In this document: one piece after another, positions 1 to 64,000 of the stretch
Layout: the number at the start of each line of letters is the position of its first letter
How positions within the stretch are numbered: the stretch's first letter is position 1
Source: a virus
Length of the DNA: 64,000 nucleotides
Reading direction: 5' to 3' (one strand)
Virus record (IMG/VR): IMGVR_UViG_3300024259_000010
Coordinates: 124,001 to 188,000 of that record
Translations under genes and position numbers: made by a program
The notes under the pieces: model-generated
The model's database searches: none
What the model was told of the DNA's origin: nothing
Seen by the model: only the letters and a program-made list of their open reading frames with translations

Positions 1-2278
1 CACTAGTATCGTTAGCATATACAGATTTCAAACCTGGGAAATGTAAGTGTGTCATATCGTAGTACTGACAGTAGTTTACATTATTACCCCACAAGCTACG
101 CTTGGTTGGTTTGTCATATGGGAACCATGAAAGCTCACGGAACTGATCTACTTCAGAGTACGGCAATCCGTTAGGCTGCTGTTTGATGTAGGTCAAGTTA
201 TGATACTCAGCAATCTTAATTGCATACCAGATAGTGTGAGGAACATCTTTCTTGTAGTACTCGCCATTCAAGACGCCATACTGCCCGAAGATAGATCCAC
301 GACATGCACCAGTACCAAACAGTTCTGATTCAGGATTCAAGACAATCTTAGCAGTCAGCATATCACCAGTAGCGATAGACATAGCTTCATCTTGATCTGA
401 TCCAGACCATGTGGACATAACAATTTTGATATCATCACGGAATGACAAGAATGCAATAAGCTCATCTTTAAGAGCAACGCTATATCCAGTATCAATAATA
501 GTATTGAATGGGAATTTAGCTTTGTCTTCAATCTGAGGATTAAAGGTTCTGTCATAGAATTTCTCAATGAGTGCTTCAATTCTATTAGTACCGAGAGGTC
601 CACCAGTATCGTCATCCAAAGATGCGCCATCAATATCAGTATCACCATCACTACCATCAGTTAAGTAATCTGGGGTAGAGGAAACGAATTCGCTCATTCC
701 AGCTTCTCTTACAATCGCAGGAGTATTGAAACCATAATCAAGATTATCACCAAGTACTATTTCAGCATAACCAGAATAAGTAATAAGAACATCTTCTGCC
801 CATGAAATTTCATAAGTACCAGCATTGTCAATAACGTCAGTTACGAAAACTTGTGTCCCGTCAATGAGTAATTCCATTCCGATATCCGGAGATACTTCAG
901 TGGCAGTAAACTGTGAAACATCACCAGGGACATCAACAGTACAACCAGTCTCTGCGATATTAGCAACTGTCATAGTAACATTAGCACCACCATTAAGAGC
1001 AATAACTATATCAACCGAAGTACCATCTATTTCACCAGTAGTTCCAACAGGAGCATCCCACGTTAGTAAGATATTCGAGCCGTCAACTTCAACAGTATTG
1101 ATAGTAGTAGTTTCAGCATTGCCAAATGTAACAACATCGTCAATCTGTGGAGATGGAGCATGTGGTGTAAACAGATTCTTAGAAACAGTTTCAGTTACAT
1201 TACCAGTATGTTCAAAGGCATCAACAATATTGAATGCATCCACATCATTAGGATTCTCTTCATCGAAGTCACCAAGTGCAACCTCGTTATATGAGGTAGG
1301 ATCTTCAGACTTAACAATAATTTTACCGTTAAGGATATTGATCTTATATGCTTTGGTATCATCTTCTTCATAACCAACAATCGGGTTAGAGATCGAATGC
1401 CATGGATCAGCTGGTGTCTGTAAGATTTCAGCTCCACCAAGTTCTTTTTTGACGCTCAAAATAGAATCATCAAAGAATTTAGAATACATATCATCTTGAA
1501 TTTCTTTTACATAAGCAGGGTAGAAATGTGCATTGACAGGAGAAACATATGAAGCATCGAAATAACGACCAAACATATTTTCAAAGTCAACATTAATACC
1601 ATCTTCAACGGTACCGTCAATAGTAGCAAATTCAAATGAGTAAGGACTGTATTTAGTTTTTACAAAACTAAATGTGCTAAATCCATAATCTTTTTGAACA
1701 AACCCTAATTCAAGGAACGAAGATTTACTAGAATTAATTCTATCATATGCAGCTTCAATGTCAGAAGTATTGTTCCATAAACGGAATCCAAGATCATTAC
1801 CATACTTACCTTCATTAGTAACATCAAATGCCATAACAGGAACAGTGTTACCACTATTAGTAGCCTGTATGTTAGCGATCGATTCACCGACTTCAAGTTT
1901 TCTATAAGTATAAGTATAATCAACTGATCCAGAAGTTGGAATGTTACACTCTAAAACATAAGAGGCTTTGGCCATAAGCTTTGTACCAGTACCATCATTG
2001 TTACCAATACGTGTAATGAACGCGCCGTTATATGGGAATGTATTGTATAAGAACACAGACGAACGACTGAAATATTCGAGGTTTGTGTTATCAAATGTTT
2101 TTTCTCCAAAGATGCTAACAGCTTTAGCATAATTGTTACACCAGACGGGTACATTGATTGGACCCTTTTCTGTCTTCATCGCATAAATTGGGCGATGCAA
2201 GGGAAGCGTCTCTGAGCTAATAGCATCAAAAGCCGATTCATCTTTTACATTAATATTTAAATGTGGAAACACATCCAT
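1..2278 (-). CDS. Tail sheath protein, 3' end missing (runs off the left edge)
   Basis: One uninterrupted frame read on the minus strand from an ATG at 2278 to the window edge, about 759 codons. The start follows an AAAGGAG ribosome site and lies 44 nt from a CATTNTATG promoter. The N-terminal part has features I associate with contractile sheaths: a KTEKGPINVPVW stretch, then a SIFGEKTF segment and YNGAFITRI. The visible C-terminal part (NLTYIKQQ, then ELSWFPYDKP) also looks sheath-like. Roughly residues 380-520 form a beta-rich, Ig-like segment that looks like an inserted surface domain. The protein would polymerise around the tail tube and contract at infection. The alternative is another baseplate or tube-associated protein. 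Antisense frames here are shadows. Confidence 0.72.
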   Translation of the reverse strand, partial: MDVFPHLNINVKDESAFDAISSETLPLHRPIYAMKTEKGPINVPVWCNNYAKAVSIFGEKTFDNTNLEYFSRSSVFLYNTFPYNGAFITRIGNNDGTGTKLMAKASYVLECNIPTSGSVDYTYTYRKLEVGESIANIQATNSGNTVPVMAFDVTNEGKYGNDLGFRLWNNTSDIEAAYDRINSSKSSFLELGFVQKDYGFSTFSFVKTKYSPYSFEFATIDGTVEDGINVDFENMFGRYFDASYVSPVNAHFYPAYVKEIQDDMYSKFFDDSILSVKKELGGAEILQTPADPWHSISNPIVGYEEDDTKAYKINILNGKIIVKSEDPTSYNEVALGDFDEENPNDVDAFNIVDAFEHTGNVTETVSKNLFTPHAPSPQIDDVVTFGNAETTTINTVEVDGSNILLTWDAPVGTTGEIDGTSVDIVIALNGGANVTMTVANIAETGCTVDVPGDVSQFTATEVSPDIGMELLIDGTQVFVTDVIDNAGTYEISWAEDVLITYSGYAEIVLGDNLDYGFNTPAIVREAGMSEFVSSTPDYLTDGSDGDTDIDGASLDDDTGGPLGTNRIEALIEKFYDRTFNPQIEDKAKFPFNTIIDTGYSVALKDELIAFLSFRDDIKIVMSTWSGSDQDEAMSIATGDMLTAKIVLNPESELFGTGACRGSIFGQYGVLNGEYYKKDVPHTIWYAIKIAEYHNLTYIKQQPNGLPYSEVDQFRELSWFPYDKPTKRSLWGNNVNYCQYYDMTHLHFPGLKSVYANDTS

Positions 2279-2321
2279 AATTTTTCTCCTTTAAGTTTTA
2301 TATACATAAAGCCCTAGTCTT

Positions 2322-2332
2322 CATACAATGAT
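2322..2332 (-). promoter_or_regulatory. Late-type promoter motif ATCATTGTATG
   Basis: On the minus strand, 44 nt before the sheath start codon. Full match to the motif shared with 13298 and, except for one base, with 20886, 24625 and 34879. Confidence 0.6.
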
Positions 2333-2381
2333 TGTAGCTAGAGTCTATATACATACATATTATTAATAATAAATTTAGAAC

Positions 2382-2390
2382 ATTTTATGA
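2382..2390 (+). promoter_or_regulatory. Late-type promoter motif CATTTTATG
   Basis: It ends 28 nt before the ATG of the gene at 2418. It is divergent from the sheath promoter, so both directions of late transcription start in this 139-nt gap. Confidence 0.5.
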
Positions 2391-2417
2391 ATAACAATTA
2401 ATTTATTAGGAGATCCA

Positions 2418-3449: not shown

Positions 3450-3451
3450 TC

Positions 3452-9692: not shown

Positions 9693-9725
9693 AACAAGCA
9701 TAGTGGATCATCCACTATGCTTGTT
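9693..9725 (+). terminator. Hairpin terminator after the tail operon
   Basis: Perfect 15-bp stem (9693-9707 with 9711-9725) and a 3-nt TCA loop, followed by AT-rich sequence rather than a long T run. The right arm merges into a TATATTAC octamer at 9725-9732. Confidence 0.7.
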
Positions 9726-9742: not shown

Positions 9743-9751
9743 CATTGTATG
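9743..9751 (+). promoter_or_regulatory. Late-type promoter motif CATTGTATG
   Basis: It lies 30 nt before the ATG at 9781, just downstream of the terminator hairpin. It would drive the 9781 gene and the GT90/sulfotransferase cassette. A TATATTAC octamer at 9725-9732 could add early transcription. Confidence 0.55.
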
Positions 9752-10462: not shown

Positions 10463-11437
10463 ATGAGGTATATATATTCCATAGATGAACGTGTAGCTCA
10501 TTATTCAGGTAACCCATATAACCATATATTCCATCGAAGTGATTTACCAAAAATGTTTGATTACCATAAATGGGCAGTATGTATGGGAGATGATATTGAC
10601 AATAGTGATATTGAAGATACAACGGAAATGAGCGATTATCATAAAAATTTGGTTGGATGTTATCATAGAATATATAATACTATTAATTCTGTAAAAAAAG
10701 AATATCCACATTTAAAAGATAAAAAAGCATTGGCTCATGTTTCAGATAATACAGCCTCATGGGAGATACCTATAATATGTAAAACCAGACCTATCGATAA
10801 TATTGGTGGTAATACTATAGCTCCTATCCGGATGACAAGAAATTATGGACATGTATTAGAATTACCTAGGATAGATTGTAAAGTATCGGAAAAAATACCT
10901 GGTGTTATGTGGCGTGGACTACTACATCTTAAAAAAAATTATAGACTGAATAACAGATTGTCTTTAATTGAGAAGTTTTATAATCATCCAAATGATCTAA
11001 TAAATATAAAACATACAGGGATACCATGTAATGAGTTTGTAGCAAGTGAAGAAGTACTTGGATATAAATTTGGTGATTATTTGAGTGTGGGAGAGATGCT
11101 CAAATATAGATTCAATGTATCTATAGAGGGTTGGGATATGGCATCTAATCTCCAGTGGATTCTTGCTAGCAACTCTATTGCTATGGCCCCTAAGATGGTT
11201 ATAGAGAGTTGGTTCATGGAGAGTAAGTTAGAACCATGGGTCCACTACATACCTATTGAAGATGATTGTTCAGATTTAATAGAGGTATATGAATGGGCAT
11301 TAATGCACCCAAATGCATGTGATGTGATTAATAGAAATGCTAAGATGTTTATGAATGAATTTGTAGATAAAAAACGTGAAAGAGAAATATTCTTTAGAGT
11401 AGTTAAGAAGTATCTTGAGAATTGTAATTTTGTTTAA
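10463..11437 (+). CDS. GT90-like (CAP10/LpsA-type) glycosyltransferase, copy 1
   Basis: 324 aa, paralogous along its whole length to the next gene. Features of the GT90/CAP10 family: a WRG motif (VMWRGLLHL), a FNVSIEGWDMASNLQWILAS stretch that matches the family pattern of Gly/Asp then a chain of small residues, then SWFMESKLEPWVHYIPI, which is the family's conserved W-F-x-x-x-L-x-PWxHYxPv block, followed by a helix with NANAKMFMNEF-like packing. Enzymes of this family move sugars such as glucose or xylose from a nucleotide sugar onto polysaccharide or protein. It is in one operon with copy 2 and a sulfotransferase. The acceptor could be a virion protein or a host surface glycan. Confidence 0.7.
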   Translation: MRYIYSIDERVAHYSGNPYNHIFHRSDLPKMFDYHKWAVCMGDDIDNSDIEDTTEMSDYHKNLVGCYHRIYNTINSVKKEYPHLKDKKALAHVSDNTASWEIPIICKTRPIDNIGGNTIAPIRMTRNYGHVLELPRIDCKVSEKIPGVMWRGLLHLKKNYRLNNRLSLIEKFYNHPNDLINIKHTGIPCNEFVASEEVLGYKFGDYLSVGEMLKYRFNVSIEGWDMASNLQWILASNSIAMAPKMVIESWFMESKLEPWVHYIPIEDDCSDLIEVYEWALMHPNACDVINRNAKMFMNEFVDKKREREIFFRVVKKYLENCNFV

Positions 11438-11446
11438 GGGAGTAAT

Positions 11447-12385
11447 ATGAATTATAAATATACGATTGATGAGAGGGTAAATTTCTATTTAGGTAATATG
11501 GATAAAAGATGTTACGATTACATGAAGGATATTACACCACGTGTACGTAATTATATATATACTGTATTGATAGGAAATAATATTGACAACACTGAAGTAT
11601 TAACTGGTGGTAAGGGTGCATTAGTTAATTCATTTAAATATATAGAAGGCACTCTTAATAAATTAATCAACGATGGTGTATGTCCTATAGATAAAACAAT
11701 ATTGGTATATTTAGCGGATCAAAATAGATTACGAACATTCCCAATGATTGCTAAAACACGTTTGATTGATGATAATGGTAATATTACCATAGCACCTATT
11801 GGTAGAGCTAGACACTATGGTCCCGTAGCAGACCTGCCTAATATTGATTGTAAAGTTAGTGATAAATGTAATAAAATTGTCTGGAGAGGACATTGTCAAC
11901 CTATGAATAATATTATTCATATTAGACAAGAAGTGGTTTCTAAATTTGCCGAACATAAAAACTCTAATATAGATATTGGATATTCTTCGGGTGTAGCAAC
12001 TGGATCTACATTATTAAAGAATAAGATGACATTACGTGAATTGTTGAGATATAGATTTAATATATCATTGGAAGGAAATGATGTTGCTACCAACCTTAAG
12101 TGGATTCTTGCTAGTAATTCAATAGCCGTAGCTCCTAGGATGACAACCGAGGGTTGGTTTATGGAAAGTAAGTTAGAACCTTGGGTACACTATATACCTT
12201 TAGATGACGACTGTATGGATATAGAGGACAAGTTAAATTGGGGGATATCTAATCCTGATAAATGTATTGATATTAATAAAAATGCTAATAAGTTTATGTT
12301 AGAGTTCGTGGACATAGAACGTGAGAATGAAATATTCTACAGAGTCCTGAAATCATATATTGAAAACATACATATAAATATTTAA
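11447..12385 (+). CDS. GT90-like (CAP10/LpsA-type) glycosyltransferase, copy 2
   Basis: 312 aa; an AAGGGAG site precedes the ATG. It has the same landmarks as copy 1: TIDERVNFYLGN at the N-terminus (copy 1 has SIDERVAHYSGN), VWRGHCQP, FNISLEGNDVATNLKWILAS, and the diagnostic WFMESKLEPWVHYIPLD block near the C-terminus. The divergence between the copies is high in the first half and low in the second, as expected if donor-site residues are kept and acceptor specificity differs. The two probably arose by tandem duplication; a third, broken copy lies downstream of the sulfotransferase at 13158. Confidence 0.7.
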   Translation: MNYKYTIDERVNFYLGNMDKRCYDYMKDITPRVRNYIYTVLIGNNIDNTEVLTGGKGALVNSFKYIEGTLNKLINDGVCPIDKTILVYLADQNRLRTFPMIAKTRLIDDNGNITIAPIGRARHYGPVADLPNIDCKVSDKCNKIVWRGHCQPMNNIIHIRQEVVSKFAEHKNSNIDIGYSSGVATGSTLLKNKMTLRELLRYRFNISLEGNDVATNLKWILASNSIAVAPRMTTEGWFMESKLEPWVHYIPLDDDCMDIEDKLNWGISNPDKCIDINKNANKFMLEFVDIERENEIFYRVLKSYIENIHINI

Positions 12386-13297: not shown

Positions 13298-13308
13298 ATC
13301 ATTGTATG
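13298..13308 (+). promoter_or_regulatory. Late-type promoter motif ATCATTGTATG
   Basis: It ends 35 nt before the prohead protease ATG and is identical to the sheath promoter motif. It separates the head gene cluster from the decayed end of the modification cassette. Confidence 0.62.
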
Positions 13309-17828: not shown

Positions 17829-17837
17829 CATATTATG
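17829..17837 (+). promoter_or_regulatory. Variant late-type promoter CATATTATG
   Basis: It lies 30 nt before the ATG at 17867. The same nonamer occurs at 52066 (plus) and 31539 (minus) at similar distances from starts, keeping the TATG end of the late motif. Confidence 0.45.
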
Positions 17838-20885: not shown

Positions 20886-20896
20886 CATAGAATGAT
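20886..20896 (-). promoter_or_regulatory. Late-type promoter motif ATCATTCTATG
   Basis: Minus strand, 31 nt before the start at 20855; it differs in one base from the sheath and protease promoters. Confidence 0.58.
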
Positions 20897-24624: not shown

Positions 24625-24635
24625 CATATAATGAT
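24625..24635 (-). promoter_or_regulatory. Late-type promoter motif ATCATTATATG
   Basis: Minus strand, 35 nt before the start at 24590; identical to the motif at 34879 upstream of the capsid candidate. Confidence 0.6.
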
Positions 24636-25659: not shown

Positions 25660-25667
25660 TATATTAC
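25660..25667 (+). promoter_or_regulatory. Early-type promoter motif TATATTAC
   Basis: Exact octamer, 163 nt ahead of the ATG at 25831 and 4 nt before the palindrome at 25672. Confidence 0.5.
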
Positions 25668-25830: not shown

Positions 25831-26244
25831 ATGAGTAAGAATAAACCCCTAGAGTGGTTGGGACAAGAACCAGTAGAAGCAAAAGACGGTCTTTTCAAAG
25901 TATCTAATAGTGGATTGAATGCTGCTAAAGATGCAGCAGGTTTGACCAAAGATGTTCGTAAAGCAATTACGGATTTTGAAGATTCATCTGATGGATCAGC
26001 TATCGCATTTTGTGGTGACCAGGTTATGAAGACTGGCAATCAGTGTACTCTTGAAGTTGGAACTGGTAACAGCAAAATTGTTTACACCATGGGTGCTAAA
26101 GGCGAAGCTCGTAATCCTAAGACTGGCGAAGTCTCTGATACATATGCACGCTTCGGAAAACGCAAACGTGGAGTTGTATCCAAAACATTGCGTGATGGTG
26201 ATCTAGCTGCTATGCAAGCTAAAATTGAAAAAGCATTAAGCTAA
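25831..26244 (+). CDS. Unknown, probably abundant phage protein (137 aa)
   Basis: 137 aa, basic near the C-terminus (FGKRKRGVVSKTLRDG), no known motif. The codon choice is richer in G and C (CGT, GGT, CTT, GAA mixtures) than in neighbours, similar to the capsid gene, which points to high expression. An AAGGAAA site precedes the ATG. It is a single-gene unit with a long leader and a strong T-run terminator. The C-terminal basic region could bind nucleic acid. Function unknown. Confidence 0.6.
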   Translation: MSKNKPLEWLGQEPVEAKDGLFKVSNSGLNAAKDAAGLTKDVRKAITDFEDSSDGSAIAFCGDQVMKTGNQCTLEVGTGNSKIVYTMGAKGEARNPKTGEVSDTYARFGKRKRGVVSKTLRDGDLAAMQAKIEKALS

Positions 26245-29174: not shown

Positions 29175-29182
29175 TATATTAC
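29175..29182 (+). promoter_or_regulatory. Early-type promoter motif TATATTAC
   Basis: Exact octamer in GATATATATTACTT, 40 nt before the start at 29222. Confidence 0.6.
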
Positions 29183-31538: not shown

Positions 31539-31547
31539 CATAATATG
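31539..31547 (-). promoter_or_regulatory. Variant late-type promoter CATATTATG
   Basis: Minus strand, 42 nt before the start at 31496; same nonamer as at 17829 and 52066. Confidence 0.45.
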
Positions 31548-31600: not shown

Positions 31601-33118
31601 TTAGAATGCTACAGCACTTGTATCACTTACTCCTTCAGCAGTATCAGAATAAATATCTACAACTGATCTATCTAAACCATTAATATCATCTACGATACCA
31701 ACACCTTCTTCAAATCGTTGTGCAAAGTATTTATGCTTATCTGGTGTAGTCTGGTATTTATGCTTAGCCCATTTAACAGTTAAGTATGATTGACCATTTA
31801 ATCCTTTTTCAATATACATGAATGCAAGGAAGTCCATTTCTTTAACAGCAGATTTACAATCACTTAAATGTGCTGATCCAAACTTCTTAACAACATTGGT
31901 AGTACCAGAGGTTGCTATTCTATCTGCTTCAGTATCTAATTGGAAACCAGTAATGGTCAAGATGTTATTTCTATTTGCATAGTTTTTCATCTTACATAAT
32001 AACTCTTGTCTAAGCTTAGCATTATTATCTTTACCATCTGCAGGTAATGCCATCAATCCAGCATAGTCCAAGATAGCACTATTGATAGTGTACTTATCAG
32101 CTAACTCTTCAAGCAATGCACGGTATTCATTATAACCAAATAGATCACCCTCTTTACGGTAGACTAAAAGTTTATAACCACGTTTGCTATATAGTTCAGC
32201 TGTTTTATTAATGATCTCTGTTTCAGATAGTCCATCGGGTGGCTCACCATAATGTTGAGTATAAGCAGACTTAAACCACATCATCATATTTTCATAGATC
32301 TCATTCTCTAGAGATATGAATACGATAGCGGCTTGTTTACCATTCTCTTTTCTAGGTTCATTATAGAGTGCCATCCATCTGGCGAAGTCCATAAGTATAC
32401 CAGATTTATAATGATGAGATAAAGCAGCGAAACCAATGAACTCTCCTGGAACTGGTCCCTGTGATCTACCAAACATACGATTAAGACTTTGTAGCCCAGT
32501 TGTATATCCAGTATCAATTCTCTTTTTCTTATAAGAATCGAATCCACGTTTTAAACTCTTAGCACATGACATATCAATAAAGTCAACCGATGCATCTTCT
32601 GTACTAGCAGTGTCTTCATAGGTCTTAGTTAGTTCACGGGATCTATCCAATAGTTCATTCATTAATGTTTCTTGGATAACAGTATCACTAGTGTTAATAA
32701 CTTTCTGACTAGTTCTAAATAATTTCTTTAATGAATTATTACCGTTTACCCAGATGATCCATTTTTTTACTTTTTGTTTTAAATGTTTGATAGTGTGATC
32801 TGAAACATTAGCACGCTCTGCAATGAGAGTTCCAATTCGTTCAACAATCTTAGGTGACTGTTTTACCATCGGATGCTGTTCCAGTTTTATTAGTAAGGCT
32901 TCAACGTCAGCCTTGCTGGATAGATTCACATTCTTATTTGTAACATCGGTAATGATGGACATATAGAACTTAGTCAATTCATCGTTTAATGCAGTACCTT
33001 TAGCAACCTCATCATAATAGGTTTTTACAGCACTTGCTACAATGTTTTCTGAATCTAAATCGTTAGAGTATATTGTTAAACAAAGAACTTCTAAGAAAAA
33101 CTCCGGTCCACTCTCCAT
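31601..33118 (-). CDS. DnaB-like replicative helicase
   Basis: 505 aa. N-terminal half is helical without a clear DnaB N-domain. From about residue 205, TGLQSLNRMFG opens the DnaB/RecA-fold core; PGEFIGFAALSHHYKSG holds the P-loop (Lys238-Ser239), SAILDYAGLM is Walker B, and ITGFQLD is the sensor-like region. It should unwind DNA ahead of the phage polymerase. The hydrolysing Glu follows the strand in an altered context. It begins with an AAGGAG site. A TATATTAT early-type motif lies 25 nt upstream, back-to-back with the scaffold-like gene at 33183. Confidence 0.8.
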   Translation of the reverse strand: MESGPEFFLEVLCLTIYSNDLDSENIVASAVKTYYDEVAKGTALNDELTKFYMSIITDVTNKNVNLSSKADVEALLIKLEQHPMVKQSPKIVERIGTLIAERANVSDHTIKHLKQKVKKWIIWVNGNNSLKKLFRTSQKVINTSDTVIQETLMNELLDRSRELTKTYEDTASTEDASVDFIDMSCAKSLKRGFDSYKKKRIDTGYTTGLQSLNRMFGRSQGPVPGEFIGFAALSHHYKSGILMDFARWMALYNEPRKENGKQAAIVFISLENEIYENMMMWFKSAYTQHYGEPPDGLSETEIINKTAELYSKRGYKLLVYRKEGDLFGYNEYRALLEELADKYTINSAILDYAGLMALPADGKDNNAKLRQELLCKMKNYANRNNILTITGFQLDTEADRIATSGTTNVVKKFGSAHLSDCKSAVKEMDFLAFMYIEKGLNGQSYLTVKWAKHKYQTTPDKHKYFAQRFEEGVGIVDDINGLDRSVVDIYSDTAEGVSDTSAVAF

Positions 33119-33142: not shown

Positions 33143-33150
33143 TAATATAG
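33143..33150 (-). promoter_or_regulatory. Early-type promoter variant TATATTAT
   Basis: Minus strand, 25 nt before the DnaB start at 33118; one base off TATATTAC. Confidence 0.45.
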
Positions 33151-34878: not shown

Positions 34879-34889
34879 ATCATTATATG
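34879..34889 (+). promoter_or_regulatory. Late-type promoter motif ATCATTATATG
   Basis: About 186 nt before the capsid ATG, so it would give a long 5' leader including a GT-rich run (34968-34990). A second TATATG lies closer, near 35046. Confidence 0.55.
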
Positions 34890-37320: not shown

Positions 37321-37328
37321 TATATTAC
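37321..37328 (+). promoter_or_regulatory. Early-type promoter motif TATATTAC
   Basis: Exact octamer, 41 nt before the start at 37370; followed by TTACATGTAC, similar to the sequence at 37563. Confidence 0.62.
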
Positions 37329-37562: not shown

Positions 37563-37570
37563 TATATTAC
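37563..37570 (+). promoter_or_regulatory. Early-type promoter motif TATATTAC
   Basis: Exact octamer; 56 nt before the start at 37627. The sequence from TAGTTCAT to here is a near copy of that at 37301-37328, so the promoter cassette is duplicated. Confidence 0.62.
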
Positions 37571-38178: not shown

Positions 38179-39619
38179 ATGGATAAGAAACCTGTTTACC
38201 AGTTCTTACATTCCACATACTGGAAGAAGAAAGGTAATGATGAAGATGCAGTCGTTGCCTGTCTCAAAGATGTAGATACTGGGAAAACTAAATTAGAAGT
38301 TATCACCAACCCAAAACGTAGTATTGGTATAACCAGAAAAGGGTTACAGGAATCTACTAATACTAAAAAGATTTGTGAAGATAATAACAATCTAGATATT
38401 TACACAATTGATAATAAAGATTTACGGGATGAGCTACAAGAAAAGTTACTTGGTTACAGTGGTGGTTATACATCACTCAAGAAACTTATTAACTCCCCAT
38501 ATGTATATGGAGCTGATATTGACATTTCTGTACTTATTAAACAACACTTTCTAAAGCAGTCAGATCGTACTGCTAAAAGCTTCAGGGTAGGTGGTCTGGA
38601 CATCGAAACCTCTGTTTTAGGGGGTAGAGAAATCCTAATGATTACATACGTTTCACCGGAGCTAAAAGTCTTTACTGCAGTTCTAGACTCATTCGTTGAA
38701 AACGTTTCTATCGATTCTATTAAAGAAAAGTTTAAAAAAGAATTAGCTGAGTTCAAAGGAAAGCTAAATAAAGAAACTTTAAAGATATTTGATGAGTATG
38801 CATCTGATATCATGCCCAATATTAATATCACTTACCATAAGACTGAAGTAGATGTCATCACTTGGATCTTTAAAATGATTCATGCGGATAAACCTGACTT
38901 CATTTCAATTTGGAACATGGGTTACGATATCCCATATATGCTAGATCGTCTGAGAGTACATAATGTATTCCCACATAAGATCATGTGTCATCCAGAAGTA
39001 CCATGGCAATATCGTATATGTTCATATAAAGCAGATCGTAATCCTAACGTAAGTCACTTCTCATATAAATGGGATGTGTTTGAATTATCTGGTTACAGTC
39101 AGTTCTATGACTCAATGTGTCTATTCAGTCGAATCCGTAAACATGAAGGTGTTGAGGATAGTTATAAACTCGAAGCTATTGCTAAGAAGATAACTGGTGC
39201 TGGAAAGATGGACAATGATAATGCTAATCACTATACCATGCAAACAGAGAAACCCGGTGAGTATGTTGTCTACAATATTTTTGATAGTTTGTTACTACCT
39301 CTAATTGAAAAGAGATGTAAAGATATTGAATCTATGATGATGTTACTTGAGGATACTAGTATTGATAGTTTCGCTCAACAGACAACTCAATTGAAAAACT
39401 GGTTCTATCGGTATTGTAAAGATAAAGGTAAAATGCCTGCTTCTTGGTATGGTAAGATTGAACATGAAACAGATGGTATGTTACATAACACAGGTGGTAA
39501 TGTATTAGCTCCAGGGCTAGCATGGCGAACTGGTGTGAATAAGATTAAAGAATTATTATCTTGTTCTAAAAACATTTTATCTAAACTTATTATTCTAGCA
39601 TGTGATATTGACGTTGCCT
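38179..39619 (+). CDS. Family B DNA polymerase, exon 1 (exonuclease domain and start of palm)
   Basis: Exon 1 encodes 480 residues and the first base of codon 481. The 3'-5' exonuclease motifs are visible: Exo I GGLDIETS (D141, E143), Exo II WNMGYDIPY (D250) and Exo III YNIFDSLL (Y365, D369). The frame then enters the palm: CDIDVA, where D478 should be the catalytic Asp of motif A. The unspliced reading hits a stop at 39649. AGGAG precedes the ATG. The splice proposed in codon 481 joins GCCT to CA, so motif A becomes D-V-A-S-M-Y-P-S. Confidence 0.85.
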
Positions 39620-39969
39620 TTTGTTTGAAAAAAAACATTGGGGCCTTGTAGTAGTAATACTATAATGAAAATTTCCTTAATTGACTGGAACCCACATAAT
39701 CAAATAAACTACAACATAACCAGTAATGGTAAGTGTGAATGTTTTAAAATTATTTGTTGTGGCAATCAGCAGCGAAGCTGTTACTGTAGTTACAGTAACC
39801 TTACTATGTAAATAGATAAGCCTATGTGATACATAGGGTGAACGTTCAGAGACTATCCCGACAGGGAGTACACCTTTCATAGGGTGGAAATAGGAAACAT
39901 CCTACGGGATGATAATATAGTCCAAATTCTCAAATAATCATACAGATGTATTTCAGTGTAGTTTAAGTA

Positions 39970-39977
39970 TATATTAC
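39970..39977 (+). promoter_or_regulatory. Early-type promoter TATATTAC inside the intron
   Basis: Exact octamer, 24 nt before the HNH endonuclease ATG. It would let the endonuclease be transcribed apart from the DNA polymerase. Confidence 0.6.
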
Positions 39978-40000
39978 TTAAATAGTAAGGAGATATAAAT

Positions 40001-40567
40001 ATGTATGAGATAGATACTTATAGTTATGAAGAAAAAGTATCATTATACGAACATGGTTTCCCGGATTACATCCTGACAATAGATGGTAGAGTATGGACGA
40101 ATAAACAACGTCGATGGTTGACTATTGATAAAGGAGGGTGTGTACTTTTAGCTTATGGTCCACAACAATACAGTAGAGTAAGTGTACGAGTATTGGTAGG
40201 TAATATATTTATTAACCCACCAGTGTTCAACAACCATTGTCAACCACTTTGGTTCAATGTTGATTATTACATTTATTCTGATGGTAAAGTGTGGAGTTGT
40301 TTCTCTGCTAAATGGTTGTTGCCAAACTTAGTAAAGCAATATCATTATATTAATATAAGTGGTAGTGCGTATTTACTAAATAGATTGGTAGCACAGACAT
40401 ACGTACCCAATCCAGATAATAAACCAGAAGTGAATCATAAGAATGGAATTAAAATAGATAATCGTGCAGAGAACCTTGAATGGTGTACGAGATCTGAGAA
40501 TATGATTCATGCGTATAATAATGGATATCTTGATGATAGTCTTGCGAAAGCACAGGCTGCCAGATAA
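40001..40567 (+). CDS. HNH homing endonuclease encoded in the intron (188 aa)
   Basis: 188 aa. Residues about 145-175 contain the HNH core: [19 protein letters not shown] has the His-Asn-...-Asn-Glu pattern, followed by [14 protein letters not shown], which belongs to the same fold. Two N-terminal repeats ([13 protein letters not shown] and [14 protein letters not shown]) look like NUMOD4-type DNA-contact modules. It would cut intronless copies of the polymerase gene near motif A and so spread the intron. AAGGAG precedes the ATG. The C-terminal DNA-binding NUMOD1 repeat of relatives is absent or shortened. Confidence 0.85.
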
Positions 40568-40580
40568 GATATTTAAAATT

Positions 40581-40600
40581 AAGATAGATTGTTCTATCTT
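40581..40600 (+). terminator. Hairpin terminator in the intron after the HNH gene
   Basis: An 8-bp stem AAGATAGA/TCTATCTT with loop TTGT, then TTTTTG; it ends 18 nt before the 3' splice site. It may alternatively be an intron P9-type hairpin. Confidence 0.55.
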
Positions 40601-40618
40601 TTTTTGTTTGAGAATTAG

Positions 40619-40833
40619 CAATGTACCCCTCCATTATGGCGGCGTGTAATTTCTGTAAGGATAGTAAAATCTTAACAGTGCTTAATATTCAGAATATGCG
40701 TTCCATTGATATTGTAGATTTCTTAGGTCATGCTTCTGCGCCCGAAGAGAACTCAGTTTATCTATGTCATAAGTATTTAAAGTTACCAGACTATAAAGAA
40801 ATGTTAGAAGCGTTCGAGAAGGAGAAGACATAA
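40619..40833 (+). CDS. Family B DNA polymerase, exon 2 (motif A only, then ends)
   Basis: Continues from codon 481 (TCA, Ser) into MYPSI and 69 further residues, ending at a TAA at 40831-40833. The spliced protein is 551 aa. The segment after motif A (NFCKDSKILTVLNIQ) is palm-like and resembles phage B-family pols, but motifs B (Kx3NSxYG) and C (YxDTDS) are not present anywhere in the window. The remaining palm, fingers and thumb are therefore either on a separate gene elsewhere or lost. The frame is continuous from exon 1 only via splicing. Confidence 0.75.
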
Positions 40834-42766: not shown

Positions 42767-42774
42767 TATATTAT
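42767..42774 (+). promoter_or_regulatory. Early-type promoter variant TATATTAT
   Basis: 46 nt before the start at 42820; one mismatch to TATATTAC. Confidence 0.48.
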
Positions 42775-42819: not shown

Positions 42820-44253
42820 ATGAGTATGAAATTACTCCCGCTTATGGACTATGAAGCTCTATATCAAAAATCACCCAATGCTAAAATCATTCCTGCTGAT
42901 GTATCATCGTTTACTTCTAAGAAACAAGTAACTGAATTTACTAAGCATATCTTCATGGATGGTGATATTGGTGTTGGGTTAGACGCTACATGTGAGTGTG
43001 GTAATCTGACAGGGTTATACTTGTTAGGAAAAGAATGTAATTTTTGTAAGACTGAGGTAAAGCGTCCTACAGCTACAGATGTTGCTTTTAATAGTTGGAT
43101 TGAAATTCCAATGTTCTTACCACCATTACTACAACCAGCCGCTCACCGTATCTTAAAGAAATGGATGGGAACTGGATGTAACAGAGAACAGTTGTTAACA
43201 TCACTGTTAACAGTTGGGTCACAATTACCAGAACCTATTGCTGAGTTCTATACACCTGGTGTATGGTCTTTCTATAATAACTTTGATAAATTAATCGAGT
43301 TCTTATTGACAGAGTATCGCCCACTACGTGAACCACAAAAAGGTGTTAAGACTGTAAATGAGAAATCTATACATATCCGTAAGTTTATCAAGATGTATAG
43401 AAAGAGATTATTTACACGTCACTTCCCTGTCATGGATAAAAGTATGCATGTTGTTAATGCACAAGGTACAATGAGTTTCGTTGATACTTCTGTACAGTGT
43501 ATTATGAAAACAGTTATTGAACTTGCAACTATTCATTATAATTATGTTGAATCTAAAAATATGCCGGAGATCGAAAGATGTGCGGTTGATATGATATCAG
43601 CTTATTATGAATATAGTGAGATCATTCTTACAACTAAAGTACAGAAGAAGTTCGGATTAATCCGCAGACATATTCTAGGAGCAAAATGTCATCTCACTTT
43701 CCGAGGTGTTATTGTTCCTATTGTAGATGCTGCAGACGGGGATGAACTTTATCTACCATGGGGTATTGGTGTACAGCAACATAAATTAGAGATTATCAAT
43801 ATCTTAGTTAATAGAAAAGGTCACACCCCACATCAGGCTCAGTTAATATTTGAGAAAGCCAAATATAAGTATGATCCTGAAGTAGATGCAATCATCGACA
43901 TATTAATTAAGGAATGTCCTTACAAAGGATTCCCATGTATCTTAGGACGTAATCCAACACTTAACCATGGAGCCATGCAAATGTTCTTCGTAACAAGGGT
44001 TAAGAAGGATGCGGATGATGATACAATATCAATGAGTCCACTGTGTCTGAGAGCACCTAATGCTGACTTTGATGGTGATGCTTTATATGGAAGTATGATT
44101 AAAGAAATGGGTGAAGTTCCATTCTTTATGAACATGCATCCTATGACCACTATGTTAACAGAAGAAGAATTATCAATATCTTCCAATGTACATATTGGTG
44201 AGCAATGCTGTGTACAATTAACCAGTTGGTTAAATCAACCAATTGTAGGATAA
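42820..44253 (+). CDS. RNA polymerase beta-prime-like subunit, N-terminal fragment with active-site loop
   Basis: 477 aa. Near the N-terminus, cysteines C58-x-C60 and C73-x-x-C76 (CECG... CNFC) match the beta-prime zinc ribbon. Near the C-terminus, LRAPNADFDGDALYG has the universal NADFDGD motif, with Asp416, Asp418 and Asp420 binding the catalytic Mg2+. The next block, MHPMTTMLTEEELSI, suits the region after the active site in beta-prime. The protein ends soon after, so this is the first part of a split beta-prime, as in phages with multisubunit RNA polymerases. It is probably part of the polymerase that transcribes later phage genes. AAAGGG precedes the ATG. Confidence 0.82.
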   Translation: MSMKLLPLMDYEALYQKSPNAKIIPADVSSFTSKKQVTEFTKHIFMDGDIGVGLDATCECGNLTGLYLLGKECNFCKTEVKRPTATDVAFNSWIEIPMFLPPLLQPAAHRILKKWMGTGCNREQLLTSLLTVGSQLPEPIAEFYTPGVWSFYNNFDKLIEFLLTEYRPLREPQKGVKTVNEKSIHIRKFIKMYRKRLFTRHFPVMDKSMHVVNAQGTMSFVDTSVQCIMKTVIELATIHYNYVESKNMPEIERCAVDMISAYYEYSEIILTTKVQKKFGLIRRHILGAKCHLTFRGVIVPIVDAADGDELYLPWGIGVQQHKLEIINILVNRKGHTPHQAQLIFEKAKYKYDPEVDAIIDILIKECPYKGFPCILGRNPTLNHGAMQMFFVTRVKKDADDDTISMSPLCLRAPNADFDGDALYGSMIKEMGEVPFFMNMHPMTTMLTEEELSISSNVHIGEQCCVQLTSWLNQPIVG

Positions 44254-56860: not shown

Positions 56861-56907
56861 ATTTCCTTTTTATTTGGATTCAGTACGGATATCTTGAATG
56901 TGATTAA

Positions 56908-57012
56908 ATGGTGATTCCAAGAGTAGAAAAAGTAATAATAACAGGGCTAAATTTTGAAGTAGATCATGTAATCCGATTTAGATACATATTAGTATTGTTT
57001 ATAAAATACTGA
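56908..57012 (+). CDS. Tentative small ORF (34 aa)
   Basis: 34 aa (VIPRVEKVIITG start, FRYILVLFIKY hydrophobic end) in the gap before the ribonucleotide reductase. No ribosome site is seen, so it is probably not translated. Confidence 0.2.
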   Translation: MVIPRVEKVIITGLNFEVDHVIRFRYILVLFIKY

Positions 57013-57061
57013 AGGTAGTTATGGTATGAGTTGGAAAATAGATTGAAGGGAAATGGAATAT

Positions 57062-59308
57062 ATGAATACTCTTAATATTGAAAATAAAATTATCAAACGT
57101 GATGGATCTGTTGTGGAATACGATGGTTCTAAAATCACAAAAGCTGTTTTAAAAGCAATCGAAAATGTTTCACAGGAGAATGTAGAAACTAATTACAAAT
57201 TAGCTGAAGAGATCTCAGCTGCAGTAGAGAATGTTATTAAATGGAAGTTTGTTTCCATTGATGATAATATTGAAAATATCAACATTGAAGAAATTCAGAA
57301 TATTGTAGAACAACAGATGATGTCTATGGGACACTTTGATATTGGACGTTCGTTCATTGTACATCGTGAAGAACAGAAGCAAAAGCGTAATACACGACTA
57401 CGCCCCGACATTACAGCTATTGAGGACTATGTATTTACTAGTAAGTATGCGCGTTATATCCCAGAGCTTAATCGTCGTGAAACATTTGAAGAAACATGTA
57501 CTCGTGTAAAAGATATGTTCATCAAACAATATCCTAATATTGAAGATGATATTGAATGGGCATTTGAACGTGTGCTTGATAAACAATGCCTACCTTCTAT
57601 GCGTGCTATGCAATTTGGTGGTGTTCCAGTAGAACGTCATAATGCAAGATTGTACAACTGTAGTTTCTCATTATGTGATAGAGTTGATTTCTTTAAAGAA
57701 TCTATGTACTTATTACTATGTGGAGTTGGTGTTGGATTTAGTGTTGAGTTTGAACATGTTGAAAAGATTCCTAAGCTTGCACAGTCACTTGATAAACATG
57801 ATGTTAAACATCATATCATTGCTGATAGTATTGAAGGTTGGGCTGATGCAATTAGTGAACTTGTCGACAGTTATATCAAAGGAACATATGTTGAATTCTC
57901 ATATGCTGAGATTCGTCCATTCGGAGCTGCTATCTCATCTGGTGGAAGAGCACCCGGTCATGTTGCATTAAAGAACTCTATTGAAAAATGTCGATTAGTT
58001 CTTGATGGTGCATTAGGTCGTCAGTTGAAACCTATTGAATGTTATGACATGATTATGCATAGTGCCGATGCTGTACTAGCTGGTGGTGTGAGACGTAGTG
58101 CTTGTATTTGTTTGTTCTCCCAAGATGATGGTGAGATGATCAATGCTAAACGTGATAATTGGTTTGAAACTAATCCACAACGTGCTCGTTCTAATAACTC
58201 TGTTAAGCTCATCCGTAAAGATGTAACTAAAGCACAGTTCATGCGTGTGTTCCAGAAGCAGAAAGAATGGGGTGAACCTGGATTCTTCTTTGCTAACGAT
58301 CTTAATCATGGAACTAACCCTTGTTGTGAAATTGGACTCGATCCTACATTGGAAACAGAAGATGGATTAGTTACTGGTTGGCAGTTCTGTAACCTGACTG
58401 AGATCAATGGTAGTAAGTTAGTTAACGTAGATGCTTTTAGAGAAGCAGTTACAGCAGCTACTATTATTGGAACATGTCAAGCAGGATTTACAAGCTTCCC
58501 ATATCTAGGAAGTGTTACTGAAGATATTTGTAAACGTGATGCTCTATTGGGTGTATCTATTACAGGTATGATGGAACATCCTGATGTAGCATTAGATCCT
58601 GATACTCAGAAGATGATGGCTTTGTATGCAGTTGGTGTAAATGATAAGATGTCTAAGAAGATTAATATCAATCAAGCTAAACGTATTACTTGTGTTAAAC
58701 CAGCTGGGACTACATCATTAGTATTAGGAACAGCTTCTGGTATTCATCCTCGACATGCTCGTAGATACTTCAGACGTGTTCAAGCAAGTATTGCAGATCC
58801 TGTCTACAAACACTTCAAAGCAGCTAATCCACATATGTGTGAAGCATCTGTTTATAGTGCTAATCAAACTGATGATGTTATTTCATTCTGTATTGAATCT
58901 AGCCCTGATGCGATCCTACGTAAAGATGTTTCTGCTCTTGATCTACTTGGTCATGTTTTGAACACTCAGAACAACTGGGTTAAGTATGGTAATACTGTCG
59001 ATATGGATGGTCTAAATCATAACGTTTCCAACACCGTTACAGTAGCTGAAGGCGATTGGGATAAAGTATCGGAATTCATCTGGAACAACCGTAGCGACTT
59101 TACAGGTGTTACAACACTAGCTGACTTTGGTGACAAGATGTACCAACAAGCTCCACATGAAGAAGTCACTACAAATGGTGATGAGAAAACATGGGGCGAT
59201 ACTATCTCTAAATTCAATAAAGTGGACTACACTGAATTGAAAGAACAAGAGGATGTCACAACATTAAATAAAGAAATTGCATGTGCCGGTGGTAAGTGTG
59301 ATATCTAA
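57062..59308 (+). CDS. nrdJ: Class II (B12-dependent) ribonucleoside-triphosphate reductase, monomeric NrdJ type
   Basis: 748 aa. Residues 1-95 form an ATP-cone-like regulatory domain (IIKRDGSVVEYDGSKI). The catalytic barrel has NCSFSL (C200), LLLCGVGVGFS, NPCCEI (N419, C421, E423) and QFCNLTEIN (C443), matching the RTPR residues N406, C408, E410 and the redox Cys pair. The C-terminus CAGGKCDI (C741, C746) matches the CX4C thioredoxin-linked shuttle. The enzyme makes deoxynucleotides with adenosylcobalamin, needing no iron or oxygen. ATG 57062 fits GAAGGGAA better than the earlier ATG at 57053. Confidence 0.88.
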   Translation: MNTLNIENKIIKRDGSVVEYDGSKITKAVLKAIENVSQENVETNYKLAEEISAAVENVIKWKFVSIDDNIENINIEEIQNIVEQQMMSMGHFDIGRSFIVHREEQKQKRNTRLRPDITAIEDYVFTSKYARYIPELNRRETFEETCTRVKDMFIKQYPNIEDDIEWAFERVLDKQCLPSMRAMQFGGVPVERHNARLYNCSFSLCDRVDFFKESMYLLLCGVGVGFSVEFEHVEKIPKLAQSLDKHDVKHHIIADSIEGWADAISELVDSYIKGTYVEFSYAEIRPFGAAISSGGRAPGHVALKNSIEKCRLVLDGALGRQLKPIECYDMIMHSADAVLAGGVRRSACICLFSQDDGEMINAKRDNWFETNPQRARSNNSVKLIRKDVTKAQFMRVFQKQKEWGEPGFFFANDLNHGTNPCCEIGLDPTLETEDGLVTGWQFCNLTEINGSKLVNVDAFREAVTAATIIGTCQAGFTSFPYLGSVTEDICKRDALLGVSITGMMEHPDVALDPDTQKMMALYAVGVNDKMSKKININQAKRITCVKPAGTTSLVLGTASGIHPRHARRYFRRVQASIADPVYKHFKAANPHMCEASVYSANQTDDVISFCIESSPDAILRKDVSALDLLGHVLNTQNNWVKYGNTVDMDGLNHNVSNTVTVAEGDWDKVSEFIWNNRSDFTGVTTLADFGDKMYQQAPHEEVTTNGDEKTWGDTISKFNKVDYTELKEQEDVTTLNKEIACAGGKCDI

Positions 59309-59486: not shown

Positions 59487-59487
59487 T

Positions 59488-59958: not shown

Positions 59959-59980
59959 TTAATTTGTTATAGGTTTAATA

Positions 59981-59989
59981 CATTATATA
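59981..59989 (+). promoter_or_regulatory. Late-type-like motif CATTATATA
   Basis: 36 nt before the start at 60026; lacks the final G of CATTNTATG. Same sequence as at 45771. Confidence 0.35.
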
Positions 59990-60025
59990 GATTTAATAGA
60001 ATCGTATTAATAAGGAGAAAGTAAC

Positions 60026-60604: not shown

Positions 60605-60605
60605 T

Positions 60606-61985
60606 ATGAGTAATAACGTATTCGAGTCACTATATGGAGATAGTCCTCCATTAACATTATTTAACACAGGTACATTGTTCGACCTTATGGCTGGAGCATA
60701 TACTGTAGGCTCGGATGGTAAGTTTTATCTAAATGGGGGTTTAGGTAATTTTATCACCGGTCTCCATGGAAGAGGTAATACTTTTAAAAGTACTCTTACT
60801 GATGCTCTTGTTATGGGTGTTCTTCGTAACTATGATGATGTTCAATGCTTCTGTGTTGATACTGAACATAGTAAAGATAAAGCACGCATCATGTCCTTTG
60901 TTAATAGTGGTATATTTGAACCTACAGATGTATCAGATAGATTCCATCTTAAAGCTGGTCCTGAATGGACTATCAATAAAGTATGGGATTTAGTTAAGCA
61001 AGTTTGTGAACTAAAGGCTAAGAATAAAAAAGCTCTTTATCAGAAAACTAACTTCCTAGATTATCATGGTAAACAGATGAATGTCTGGTCACCAACTATT
61101 ATCTGGATCGATAGTTTCTCTCAACTTAAATCTGATGCAGAAGGTGATATCCTCGGATTGGATGCTGATGCTAAATCAAAGAAAGATGAGCGTGAAATAG
61201 AGAATAAGAAAAATAAGACTCTCTATATGGATGATGGTAATAAGAAGACTATGTTGATGGCCGCATTAAATAAGATGTGTGCTGAGTATGGTATCATCAT
61301 TACAACCACTGCTCATACTGGTGATAACTTTGCTATGGATGGTGCACCACCTTCTAAAGAGTTATTACATCAGAAACAAAAAGATAAGATCAAAGGAGTT
61401 GGATCTAAGTTCACAACATTGACACATGTTCTTACTCAGGTACAATCCTGTAAGTTCTGTCAAGACAGTGCTAAGAAAGCTCTTTACTGTGATGGTGCAA
61501 CTGCTGATCAAGATCTAAATGAATTAAGTGTTGTTATCAGTAGAAACAAAGTAGGTGCAAGTGGTATCTCTGTTCCATTCGTTGTATCCCAAGCACATGG
61601 ATTGTTAAACGATGTTAGCAATCTTAACTTCTTGAGAACATATGGATATGAAGGTTTGACTGGCGGTGCTAGTAAACCTAACAATAGTTGTTCATGGTTG
61701 CCCGAAACTACCTTCACTCGAAACAATGTTAGAGAGAAGTTTAGAGGCGATTACCAACTATGTCGTGCAATGGAATTAGTTGCAAGATATAGATATATTC
61801 AATTATCATGGAATCTAAGTAAACTACCTATTGATTTCACTCGACCACCCGAACAAGTATTCGACCTATTGACCAAGTCTTCAATGAAGATGGAAGATAT
61901 TTTGAATACTACATCTAATTGGTCCTTTAAGAAACGTGATCGTGAGTTCATGACTCTGTTCGACATTATTGGACAAATCAAATAA
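60606..61985 (+). CDS. RecA/UvsX-like recombinase
   Basis: 459 aa. P-loop GLHGRGNTFKST at residues 52-63 (Lys61) is an unusual Walker A; Walker B TIIWIDSFSQL (Asp169) and a THTGDN-like loop (IITTTAHTGD) complete the RecA core. DTEHSKD near residue 85-91 contains the Glu expected after strand 3. The N-terminus is short. It would form filaments for strand exchange and recombination-dependent replication; SbcC and RuvC in the window suit the pathway. It is coupled to the acidic 60026 protein, and a GAAA-capped hairpin ends the operon. Confidence 0.82.
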   Translation: MSNNVFESLYGDSPPLTLFNTGTLFDLMAGAYTVGSDGKFYLNGGLGNFITGLHGRGNTFKSTLTDALVMGVLRNYDDVQCFCVDTEHSKDKARIMSFVNSGIFEPTDVSDRFHLKAGPEWTINKVWDLVKQVCELKAKNKKALYQKTNFLDYHGKQMNVWSPTIIWIDSFSQLKSDAEGDILGLDADAKSKKDEREIENKKNKTLYMDDGNKKTMLMAALNKMCAEYGIIITTTAHTGDNFAMDGAPPSKELLHQKQKDKIKGVGSKFTTLTHVLTQVQSCKFCQDSAKKALYCDGATADQDLNELSVVISRNKVGASGISVPFVVSQAHGLLNDVSNLNFLRTYGYEGLTGGASKPNNSCSWLPETTFTRNNVREKFRGDYQLCRAMELVARYRYIQLSWNLSKLPIDFTRPPEQVFDLLTKSSMKMEDILNTTSNWSFKKRDREFMTLFDIIGQIK

Positions 61986-61992
61986 ATTATAT

Positions 61993-62024
61993 CTACAGTA
62001 CTACGGGAAACCGTAGTACTGTAG
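61993..62024 (+). terminator. GAAA-loop hairpin terminator
   Basis: A 14-bp stem (61993-62006 with 62011-62024) capped by GAAA, then TTCTTTTT. Confidence 0.88.
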
Positions 62025-62042
62025 TTCTTTTTAGTTCAGATA

Positions 62043-62050
62043 TATATTAC
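62043..62050 (+). promoter_or_regulatory. Early-type promoter motif TATATTAC
   Basis: Exact octamer in GATATATATTACTTA, 43 nt before the start at 62093; nearly the same 20-nt context as 37563. Confidence 0.62.
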
Positions 62051-62092
62051 TTATTTAGATTAACTAATTTAAATAAATAAGAAAGGTATATT

Positions 62093-62551
62093 ATGAAAAT
62101 TATTAAGAACATTGCGCGGTTGATTTTAATGGATATGGCTATGTTATTGTTCAAGAACAATAGCGGATTCGTAGAAGCTATTCTAATGCAGTACTGTGGG
62201 GTTACAGAAGGAGCATGTTGTTTAGTAGGTTTCTTTGTCAAACAACATATCATATGTAATGTGAAAGACGAGCAGACGGCTCATGCATTTCTATTACATG
62301 AGGAAGGGCATAAGGATTTGATACTTCGAATCCGAATGCAGGTATTAAAAGGTAAAGCAGCACCTGGTATAGTGCTCGATTTAGAAGAAGAGATGATAGC
62401 CGATAACTATGCTACCAAGCGTGGATATGGTAAACCCATATTAGATGCATTAAACAACCTATTAATGGGCAATACTGCTGACATTAGTGAAGGATGTATT
62501 GATCTTCTGACAACACGACGGAATAATATCTTATCGCAATTGTTGGTATGA
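62093..62551 (+). CDS. Zincin-type metallopeptidase with HEEGH (152 aa)
   Basis: 152 aa. HEEGH at residues 69-73 is the HExxH zinc motif, and EEEMIADNYAT (98-108) supplies the Glu/Asp pattern of M48- or ImmA-like peptidases. A hydrophobic N-terminus (LILMDMAMLLF) may be a weak membrane anchor. An early-type promoter precedes it, so it may inactivate a host protein such as a regulator or defence factor early in infection. The substrate is unknown. AGAAAGG precedes the ATG; it is monocistronic. Confidence 0.68.
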   Translation: MKIIKNIARLILMDMAMLLFKNNSGFVEAILMQYCGVTEGACCLVGFFVKQHIICNVKDEQTAHAFLLHEEGHKDLILRIRMQVLKGKAAPGIVLDLEEEMIADNYATKRGYGKPILDALNNLLMGNTADISEGCIDLLTTRRNNILSQLLV

Positions 62552-62579
62552 TATGACATTAATATGTGTAACAAAAGAG

Positions 62580-62597
62580 AGAGAGTGTAAACTCTCT
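62580..62597 (+). terminator. Short hairpin with T run
   Basis: A 7-bp stem AGAGAGT/ACTCTCT with loop GTAA and an eight-base T run. Confidence 0.8.
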
Positions 62598-62637
62598 TTT
62601 TTTTCTTTTTATCAATTTTTGAAAAACCTATACTTGC

Positions 62638-62646
62638 CATTATATG
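62638..62646 (+). promoter_or_regulatory. Late-type promoter motif CATTATATG
   Basis: 33 nt before the start at 62679; identical core to the motifs at 24625 and 34879. Confidence 0.6.
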
Positions 62647-62678
62647 TATATAAATTTATAAAAGCAAAAGGAGAGGCT

Positions 62679-64000
62679 ATGTTCGAAGTCATAAGCTCAG
62701 TCCCTGATATATTTAACACTGCTATCTATACTGTAGCTAGGCAGGCGTTTAATGAATTCACAGAACGTGCTGGTATTGCAGGATATTTTAAAAACAATAT
62801 TAACTATAATTCACTTGGTACTAGTGTGTCAGGTTCTAATGATATTGGTGGTTTACCACTGATGCAACAGAATAGAGCAGATATTGCTATTCAATATAAT
62901 TTTGGATTATTAGAACAACATTATGAAGTTGGTAAAACATCCGATGAGTATCAACAATCATTATCACATCTAAACCATGCTAATTACAAAGTTATTTTCA
63001 CTGAACCACTTGATAGGATTTCAATTATTGAATACGATAGACCATTAACTATTACTCTCAGTTGTGTATTATTTCTAAATGATCTAGTTAGCGCTACAGA
63101 TGTACAACAGCGTCTACAATCTATTTTCACTAACGGTGTCATAACACATGATATCATGTACTCATATTTCTTACCGCCTAATGTTTATGTGAGATTATAT
63201 GAACTGTATAAGTTTGCAGGAAATGATCCTCAGGATTTCATGGCACATATTGCTAAGTTCTCAGGTGATAGAATTATGAAGACTGTCAATAGACATGATA
63301 ATTCAGATAGTGCATTATCTGTTAAGAAAACAAAGACAGGCATTGTATCTAGTATTGAACCTATACAGGGGACACCCACCCCAGTTGGTAATGAAAACTC
63401 TCCTGATATGTATGAGATGTCGTTATCAATAAATACACAATTATCCATGTCTAATCTAATAGGTATTTCATATCCTATCGTTATAGATAATAAATTGGTA
63501 CCAAGAGAATATATAACTTTAAAAGATACTCATATATTCACTCCACCTAATACTACACATCCATACTTCTCTGTAGATAAATATATTAATTTATTGAAAG
63601 ATGAAATGACAGTACCAGAGAAACCAGTACACATACCTTGGTATGATAAATGGACTCCACCTGTAATCAAGATAATGCATAAGTATAAACCTTTTTTTAT
63701 CTCTGTTGTGCTTCTTGATAATATCGCTGATGATAATGCTTTTACTGATATTGATTTAGATGGTGACTTAGGAGGTGTTACATTAATACCTAGTGTTGTC
63801 AATGCCATTAGAGATCAGGGTGATAGTAGTTTATATCTAATTGAAAATATAAATATTAGTTTATATAGAAATGATATAATGGTAGAACCATCGACATTAG
63901 AATTTGTAAACGGCACCACACTTCGTATTCATAATAGAAATACCAATGGTGTATATCGATTAGTAATATCAGCCACTGACGTTATTCTAGGTTCTCTTCG
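62679..64000 (+). CDS. Large unknown virion protein, 3' end missing
   Basis: Open frame from ATG 62679 to the window edge (about 440 codons visible). AGGAG precedes the start and a late-type promoter lies 33 nt upstream. The protein is beta-rich, with VDKYINLLKD, WTPPVIKIM and VLLDNIADDN segments; no domain recognised. Length and promoter suggest a tail or baseplate component. Its C-terminus and function are outside the window. Confidence 0.65.
   Translation, partial: MFEVISSVPDIFNTAIYTVARQAFNEFTERAGIAGYFKNNINYNSLGTSVSGSNDIGGLPLMQQNRADIAIQYNFGLLEQHYEVGKTSDEYQQSLSHLNHANYKVIFTEPLDRISIIEYDRPLTITLSCVLFLNDLVSATDVQQRLQSIFTNGVITHDIMYSYFLPPNVYVRLYELYKFAGNDPQDFMAHIAKFSGDRIMKTVNRHDNSDSALSVKKTKTGIVSSIEPIQGTPTPVGNENSPDMYEMSLSINTQLSMSNLIGISYPIVIDNKLVPREYITLKDTHIFTPPNTTHPYFSVDKYINLLKDEMTVPEKPVHIPWYDKWTPPVIKIMHKYKPFFISVVLLDNIADDNAFTDIDLDGDLGGVTLIPSVVNAIRDQGDSSLYLIENINISLYRNDIMVEPSTLEFVNGTTLRIHNRNTNGVYRLVISATDVILGSL

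Follow-up and report, generated by a model that had tools for sequence, protein, structure and literature searches.

Two upstream motifs in a distant phiKZ relative as probable promoters of a programme run by two phage-encoded RNA polymerases

The window analysed here, a stretch of 64,000 nucleotides, comprises bases 124001-188000 of a virus record of 235,833 bases (235.8 kb) with a GC content of 34%, in which 247 genes were called with our own simple coding-potential script. The virus is a jumbo phage and a distant relative of phiKZ, as shown by homologues of the portal, terminase, sheath and protease proteins as well as of DNA polymerase, helicase and UvsX, and the RNAP beta-prime encoded in the window is 26-30% identical to the beta-prime of the best-matching known phages. 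An Rfam scan of the window matched no RNA family. Two motifs, TATATTAC and CATTNTATG, stand in front of many genes; promoter classes were assigned by PWM score with a threshold, and the sites within the window are collected in Table 1 together with the genes of the non-virion RNAP (nvRNAP). Among the virion genes, two similar neighbours (10463-12385), encoding 324 and 312 aa, appear to be tandem paralogues.

Table 1. Predicted early and late promoter sites of the window and genes for nvRNAP subunits (window coordinates unless marked as genome)
Feature	Position	Strand	Predicted +1	Score	Downstream gene or remark
Early core TATATTAC	25660..25667	+	25674	28.8	gene 25831-26244; +1 to ATG 157 nt
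Early core TATATTAC	29175..29182	+	29189	26.6	
Early core TATATTAC	37321..37328	+	37335	24.6	
Early core TATATTAC	37563..37570	+	37577	27.8	
Early core TATATTAC	39970..39977	+	39984	28.7	HNH endonuclease gene at 40001
Early core, TATATTAT form	42767..42774	+	42781	22.6	nvRNAP beta-prime gene
Early core TATATTAC	62043..62050	+	62057	27.9	
Late CATTGTATG	2322..2330	-	2322	16.4	sheath homologue (phiKZ gp29), 44 nt to ATG
Late CATTTTATG	2381..2389	+	2389	16.0	
Late CATTGTATG	9743..9751	+		15.8	phiKZ gp176 homologue
Late CATTGTATG	13300..13308	+		13.5	head protease homologue (phiKZ gp175)
Late CATATTATG	17829..17837	+		13.9	phiKZ gp32 homologue; outside the pattern of the sequence-only reading
Late CATTCTATG	20886..20894	-		15.4	
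Late CATTATATG	24625..24633	-		15.7	weak match to phiKZ internal head proteins (Pfam phiKZ_IP, below cut-off)
Late CATATTATG	31539..31547	-		13.1	
Late CATTATATG	34881..34889	+		15.7	major capsid gene, ATG 35076, 187 nt away
Late CATTATATG	62638..62646	+		15.0	
nvRNAP beta-prime N-terminal subunit (phiKZ gp55 homologue)	42820..44253	+			catalytic motif NADFDGD; PHROG 2987, E 1e-84; PDB 7ogp PHIKZ055, E 4e-51
Other nvRNAP homologues	genome: gp68 201223; gp71-73 with gp74 208856, 210956; gp123 102324				

A sequence-only reading of the window had taken these motifs for early and late promoters. All six exact copies of TATATTAC that it listed lie where it had placed them, and its CATTNTATG sites are present within 2 bases (2381 instead of 2382, 13300 instead of 13298, 34881 instead of 34879), while its lists left out in-gene copies (3880, 9192 on the minus strand, 40200 on the minus strand and 52891; 33364 and 47355, both on the minus strand) and an intergenic TATATTAC at 9725. 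The variant TATATTAT is a full early promoter by score at 42767, but its copies at 33143 (minus strand, helicase) and 38148 (DNA polymerase) fall below threshold. The distances to the start codons given in that reading hold, the early core lying mostly 35-56 nt from the ATG and the late leader, from predicted +1 to ATG, usually measuring 26-48 nt (187 nt for the capsid gene). CATATTATG, proposed there as a possible intermediate form, was rejected as a third class, being the late CATNNTATG with AT in the spacer and preceding a virion-protein homologue (17829) as well as other late-type genes.

Enrichment over shuffled sequence, the absence of which would have refuted the same reading, is found in upstream regions of both the window and the genome, but not in raw counts over the whole window; the null models were dinucleotide shuffles of either the whole window or the upstream regions. 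TATATTAC occurs 11 times in the whole window against 9.7 in shuffles, which is no excess, but 7 times in the upstream regions of the window, where 0.85 would be expected and none of 400 shuffles reaches 7. Genome-wide, it lies in 41 of 147 upstream regions (2.9 expected from shuffles) and its longer core ATATATTAC is found 37 times in such regions (1.3 expected), although several early cassettes nearly duplicate one another and the early count is thus not fully independent. The early motif tops an unbiased search of the genome's upstream regions. Alignment of 38 sites reveals the core ATATATTAC with T at the sixth base in 37 and then a purine in all 38, and a second element, TGTA(T/G)TTCA, about 14-22 bases 5′ of the core; the T at -1 and the purine constitute a sequence signature of the early start, so that the purine is the predicted +1. 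All 45 early sites to which a gene was assigned lie on the plus strand. Many are directly preceded by a T-run, so that terminator and promoter resemble a single cassette.

The whole-window count of CATTNTATG (10 versus 6.8 in dinucleotide shuffles) likewise shows no excess, whereas the upstream regions of the window hold 6 copies with 0.23 expected, a number reached in 0 of 400 shuffles. Once upstream regions with the early core had been taken out, a blind search for gapped words ranked CATNNTATG (25 versus 1.8) and CATTNTATG (18 versus 0.65 in upstream regions genome-wide) at the top, and an expectation-maximisation search returned the same motif with a log-likelihood ratio of 99, as compared with 32-37 in shuffles. 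Of 52 copies of CATNNTATG, 33 are intergenic, with about 6 expected by area. The resulting late anatomy is C-8 A-7 T-6 T-5 N-4 T-3 A-2 T-1 G+1, with a putative +1; late sites occupy both strands (19 and 17), and the genome contains 37 late calls against about 4 expected, near-threshold scores including a few false positives.

Single-protein searches of IMG/VR with beta-prime and capsid returned no close relative; relatives came to light through the promoter pattern and through a capsid alignment. A scan of IMG/VR with a pattern of 17 fixed early-promoter bases returned 26 stretches, among them the relatives L019, L027, L037 and L040, the more distant L026, and a 150-kb contig of L021. Large relatives are G001 (142 kb, from L019), G002 (150 kb, from L021) and G009 (265 kb, GC 48%, obtained via the capsid alignment). 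Early motifs recur in G001 and G002, mostly on a single strand, and G009 carries TATATTAC in 17 copies on one strand and 1 on the other. The late motif was found de novo in G001 as CCAT-NN-TAT(A/G), and in G009 the upstream regions that remained yielded C.AT..TATG in a blind search (log-likelihood ratio 86-105 versus 21-47); (C)AT-NN-TAT-R has thus emerged from blind searches in two divergent relatives. In G002, it recurs weakly as AT-NN-TATAA; another G002 candidate, GGACNTAT, was discarded, several of its copies being mirror pairs within inverted repeats that resemble terminators. Orthologs shared with G009 agree in class, with 8 early-early, 20 late-late and 0 discordant (Fisher p 3e-7, same-operon genes being counted separately); in G009, gp178, gp180, gp149 and gp80 fall in the late class, and gp68, gp55 and gp123 in the early one. 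The close contig L027 retains both promoters where a late gene and the gene for nvRNAP beta diverge.

Judged by homology, both phiKZ-type RNA polymerases are encoded in the genome. Genes for all five nvRNAP subunits are spread over four units, and an early motif accompanies every one of these (4/4), while among the virion RNAP (vRNAP) homologues (gp178, gp180, gp80 and gp149) CATNNTATG is present at the first three (3/4) and the near variant CATAGTATAG at gp149. The subunit genes of each polymerase carry the predicted motif expected from the phiKZ programme, in which the genes for nvRNAP belong to the early class and those for vRNAP to the middle or late one (PMC4666361, PMC4848604); this supports the earlier suggestion of transcription by phage-encoded polymerases. 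Homologues of phiKZ virion proteins comprise 13 late and 1 early, and the remaining homologues 6 late and 8 early (Fisher p 0.013). The functional split into early and late genes is broadly right, but the helicase (31601-33118, minus strand), DNA polymerase (38179), UvsX (60606) and terminase (15675) genes were assigned neither motif, and there may be a middle class or a promoter form that escaped detection; genome-wide, 101 of 247 genes are without a promoter class, DNA polymerase and helicase among them.

The two motifs are most probably the promoters of a phiKZ-type two-polymerase programme, a reading to which we give a probability of roughly 0.87. According to it, virion RNAP would enter with the DNA and read early promoters, each composed of an element near TGTA(T/G)TTCA, the core, six bases and a purine at +1, which would drive small takeover-type genes and the units for the five nvRNAP subunits. 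The nvRNAP would next read late promoters of the form C(-8)A(-7)T(-6)T(-5)N T(-3)A(-2)T(-1)G(+1), and these would drive virion proteins together with the vRNAP subunits packaged into the next virion. We infer the pairing of enzyme and motif, the start sites, the timing and the CAT-reading subunit from sequence. By homology, the beta lobe (in the gp123 homologue) would hold TATG as it does in phiKZ; the TATG-pocket residues His185, His331 and Tyr399 correspond here to His, Tyr and Phe in an alignment of 17-21% identity. The CAT box lies near the side where the phiKZ sigma-like subunit stabilises opened DNA, and we propose this subunit as the likeliest CAT reader.

The late motif, which had been equated with the phiKZ TATG promoter, corresponds to it in part. 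Shared features are the TATG box with its G as +1, the virion and vRNAP genes downstream and the homologues of all five nvRNAP subunits, whereas the motif here is longer, with a CAT box at -8 to -6 that is not in the published phiKZ consensus. Since blind searches return this box beyond plain TATG, the late promoter appears to be a variant of the phiKZ type and not a plain member, with a predicted bipartite structure of TATG start-site box and CAT box. TATG alone might nevertheless be the promoter, the CAT box having no role in transcription start and arising incidentally, for instance from a site for another protein: the phiKZ nvRNAP starts in vitro at TATG (PMC4666361), only TATG has been found as the phiKZ late consensus, substitutions in it strongly lower nvRNAP transcription, and base-specific contact is made only there (PMC4666361, PMC12809450). 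We consider this unlikely, as the spacing from CAT to TATG is constant across G000, G001 and G009, CAT lies upstream of +1 and so outside the leader, and in phiKZ, AT occupies -7/-6 at 10 of the 29 TATG sites that precede virion genes versus 3 of 24 antisense, a suggestive if modest over-representation. The well-studied phiKZ p119L is without AT at these positions; CATNNTATG itself shows no enrichment in phiKZ (2 sense and 1 antisense of 203), and genome-wide in phiKZ and six other phages it is not clearly above a reversed-pattern control, with small excesses in two.

A bipartite late promoter has a parallel in AR9, where a related nvRNAP reads AACA-6N-T(A/G), with one element upstream and one at the start site (PMC5312081), but sequence and spacing differ; blind searches returned CAT-NN-TATG here and no AACA of the AR9 type. 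The AR9 late promoters need uracil in the template strand (PMC7598289). It can be speculated, though we hold it doubtful, that (C)AT-NN-TAT-R is the ancestral late promoter of these polymerases, with the sigma-like subunit (the gp68 homologue) reading CAT and the beta lobe of the gp123 homologue TATG, and that phiKZ lost most of the upstream box. Such a loss would bear on why the four-base consensus seems too short for specificity, a question raised by structural work on phiKZ (PMC12809450). According to a review, late promoters of such phages are not predictable from sequence (PMC7598289); unlike those of phiKZ, the late promoters described here are detectable by sequence alone, having been found blind in three divergent genomes, one of them near-balanced in base composition, with a second element at fixed distance. 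CAT and TATG together provide a concrete target for mutation in the study of nvRNAP recognition, and the motifs allow genes of uncultured jumbo phages to be classed as early or late.

The early motif had been equated with the phiKZ early promoter, and this identification stands. In phiKZ, 26 intergenic plus-strand TATATTAC sites share the core, T-1, mostly G+1 and an upstream TGTATTYAAA at equal distance, an agreement in core, upstream element and spacing by which the early promoter here would be of the phiKZ kind, read by virion RNAP; early sites on one strand and nvRNAP genes downstream are further likenesses, whereas the sequence separating the two elements is not the same and a T-run directly precedes many of the sites here. 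The core might also be seen as an ordinary sigma-70 -10 box used by host RNA polymerase, since TATATT matches TATAAT in 5 of 6 bases and the start spacing would fit, but this is very improbable: a TTGACA-like -35 element at 15-19 nt is not enriched (3.09 of 6 matches versus 3.00 in shuffled flanks), and the core continues with AC and is followed, six bases later, by a constant T and purine. That both motifs are artefacts of AT-rich intergenic DNA, as raw window counts no higher than in shuffles might suggest, has practically no probability, being refuted by the shuffle and G009 tests, namely the strong excess relative to dinucleotide-shuffled upstream regions, the strand bias, and the recurrence of both motifs at 48% GC, which means that base composition is not their explanation.

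A perfect inverted repeat, CTGTAGTTCATTGAACTACAG, abuts the early core in a hairpin-like manner in close relatives (L027:5568-5597, L027:8825-8854 and L040:7323-7352). A hairpin upstream of the core, suggested by these repeats, was dropped because in the window's genome the dyad does not covary, with 145 pairs as against 139.8 by permutation (p 0.23).

The gene for the family B DNA polymerase (38179-40833) appears to be interrupted: an N-terminal ORF of 490 aa (38179-39651) is followed by an HNH endonuclease ORF (40001-40567) with its own early promoter at 39970 and then by an ORF (40621-40833) carrying the polymerase motif YPSIMA. This arrangement suggests a mobile intron, and Rfam matched no known intron family. 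The ribonucleotide reductase gene is intact in the window (57053-59308) and split by about 0.9 kb in a relative (L037:2438-5635), perhaps by another intron.

Beyond the window, the genome encodes a 528-aa protein, g207 (genome 193562-195148; L011:13562-15148), which the PHROG shell profile misses; PHROG chimallin and PhuZ profiles gave no match. Aligned as a family with hhalign, it matches the chimallin alignment with a probability of 94% (E 1e-7, 306 columns), and its G002 ortholog matches the chimallin profile (E 3e-4). The orthologs directly precede the gp55 homologue in G001, G002 and G009, the same place as that of phiKZ chimallin, and g207 is possibly a highly divergent shell protein (chimallin) of the phage nucleus.
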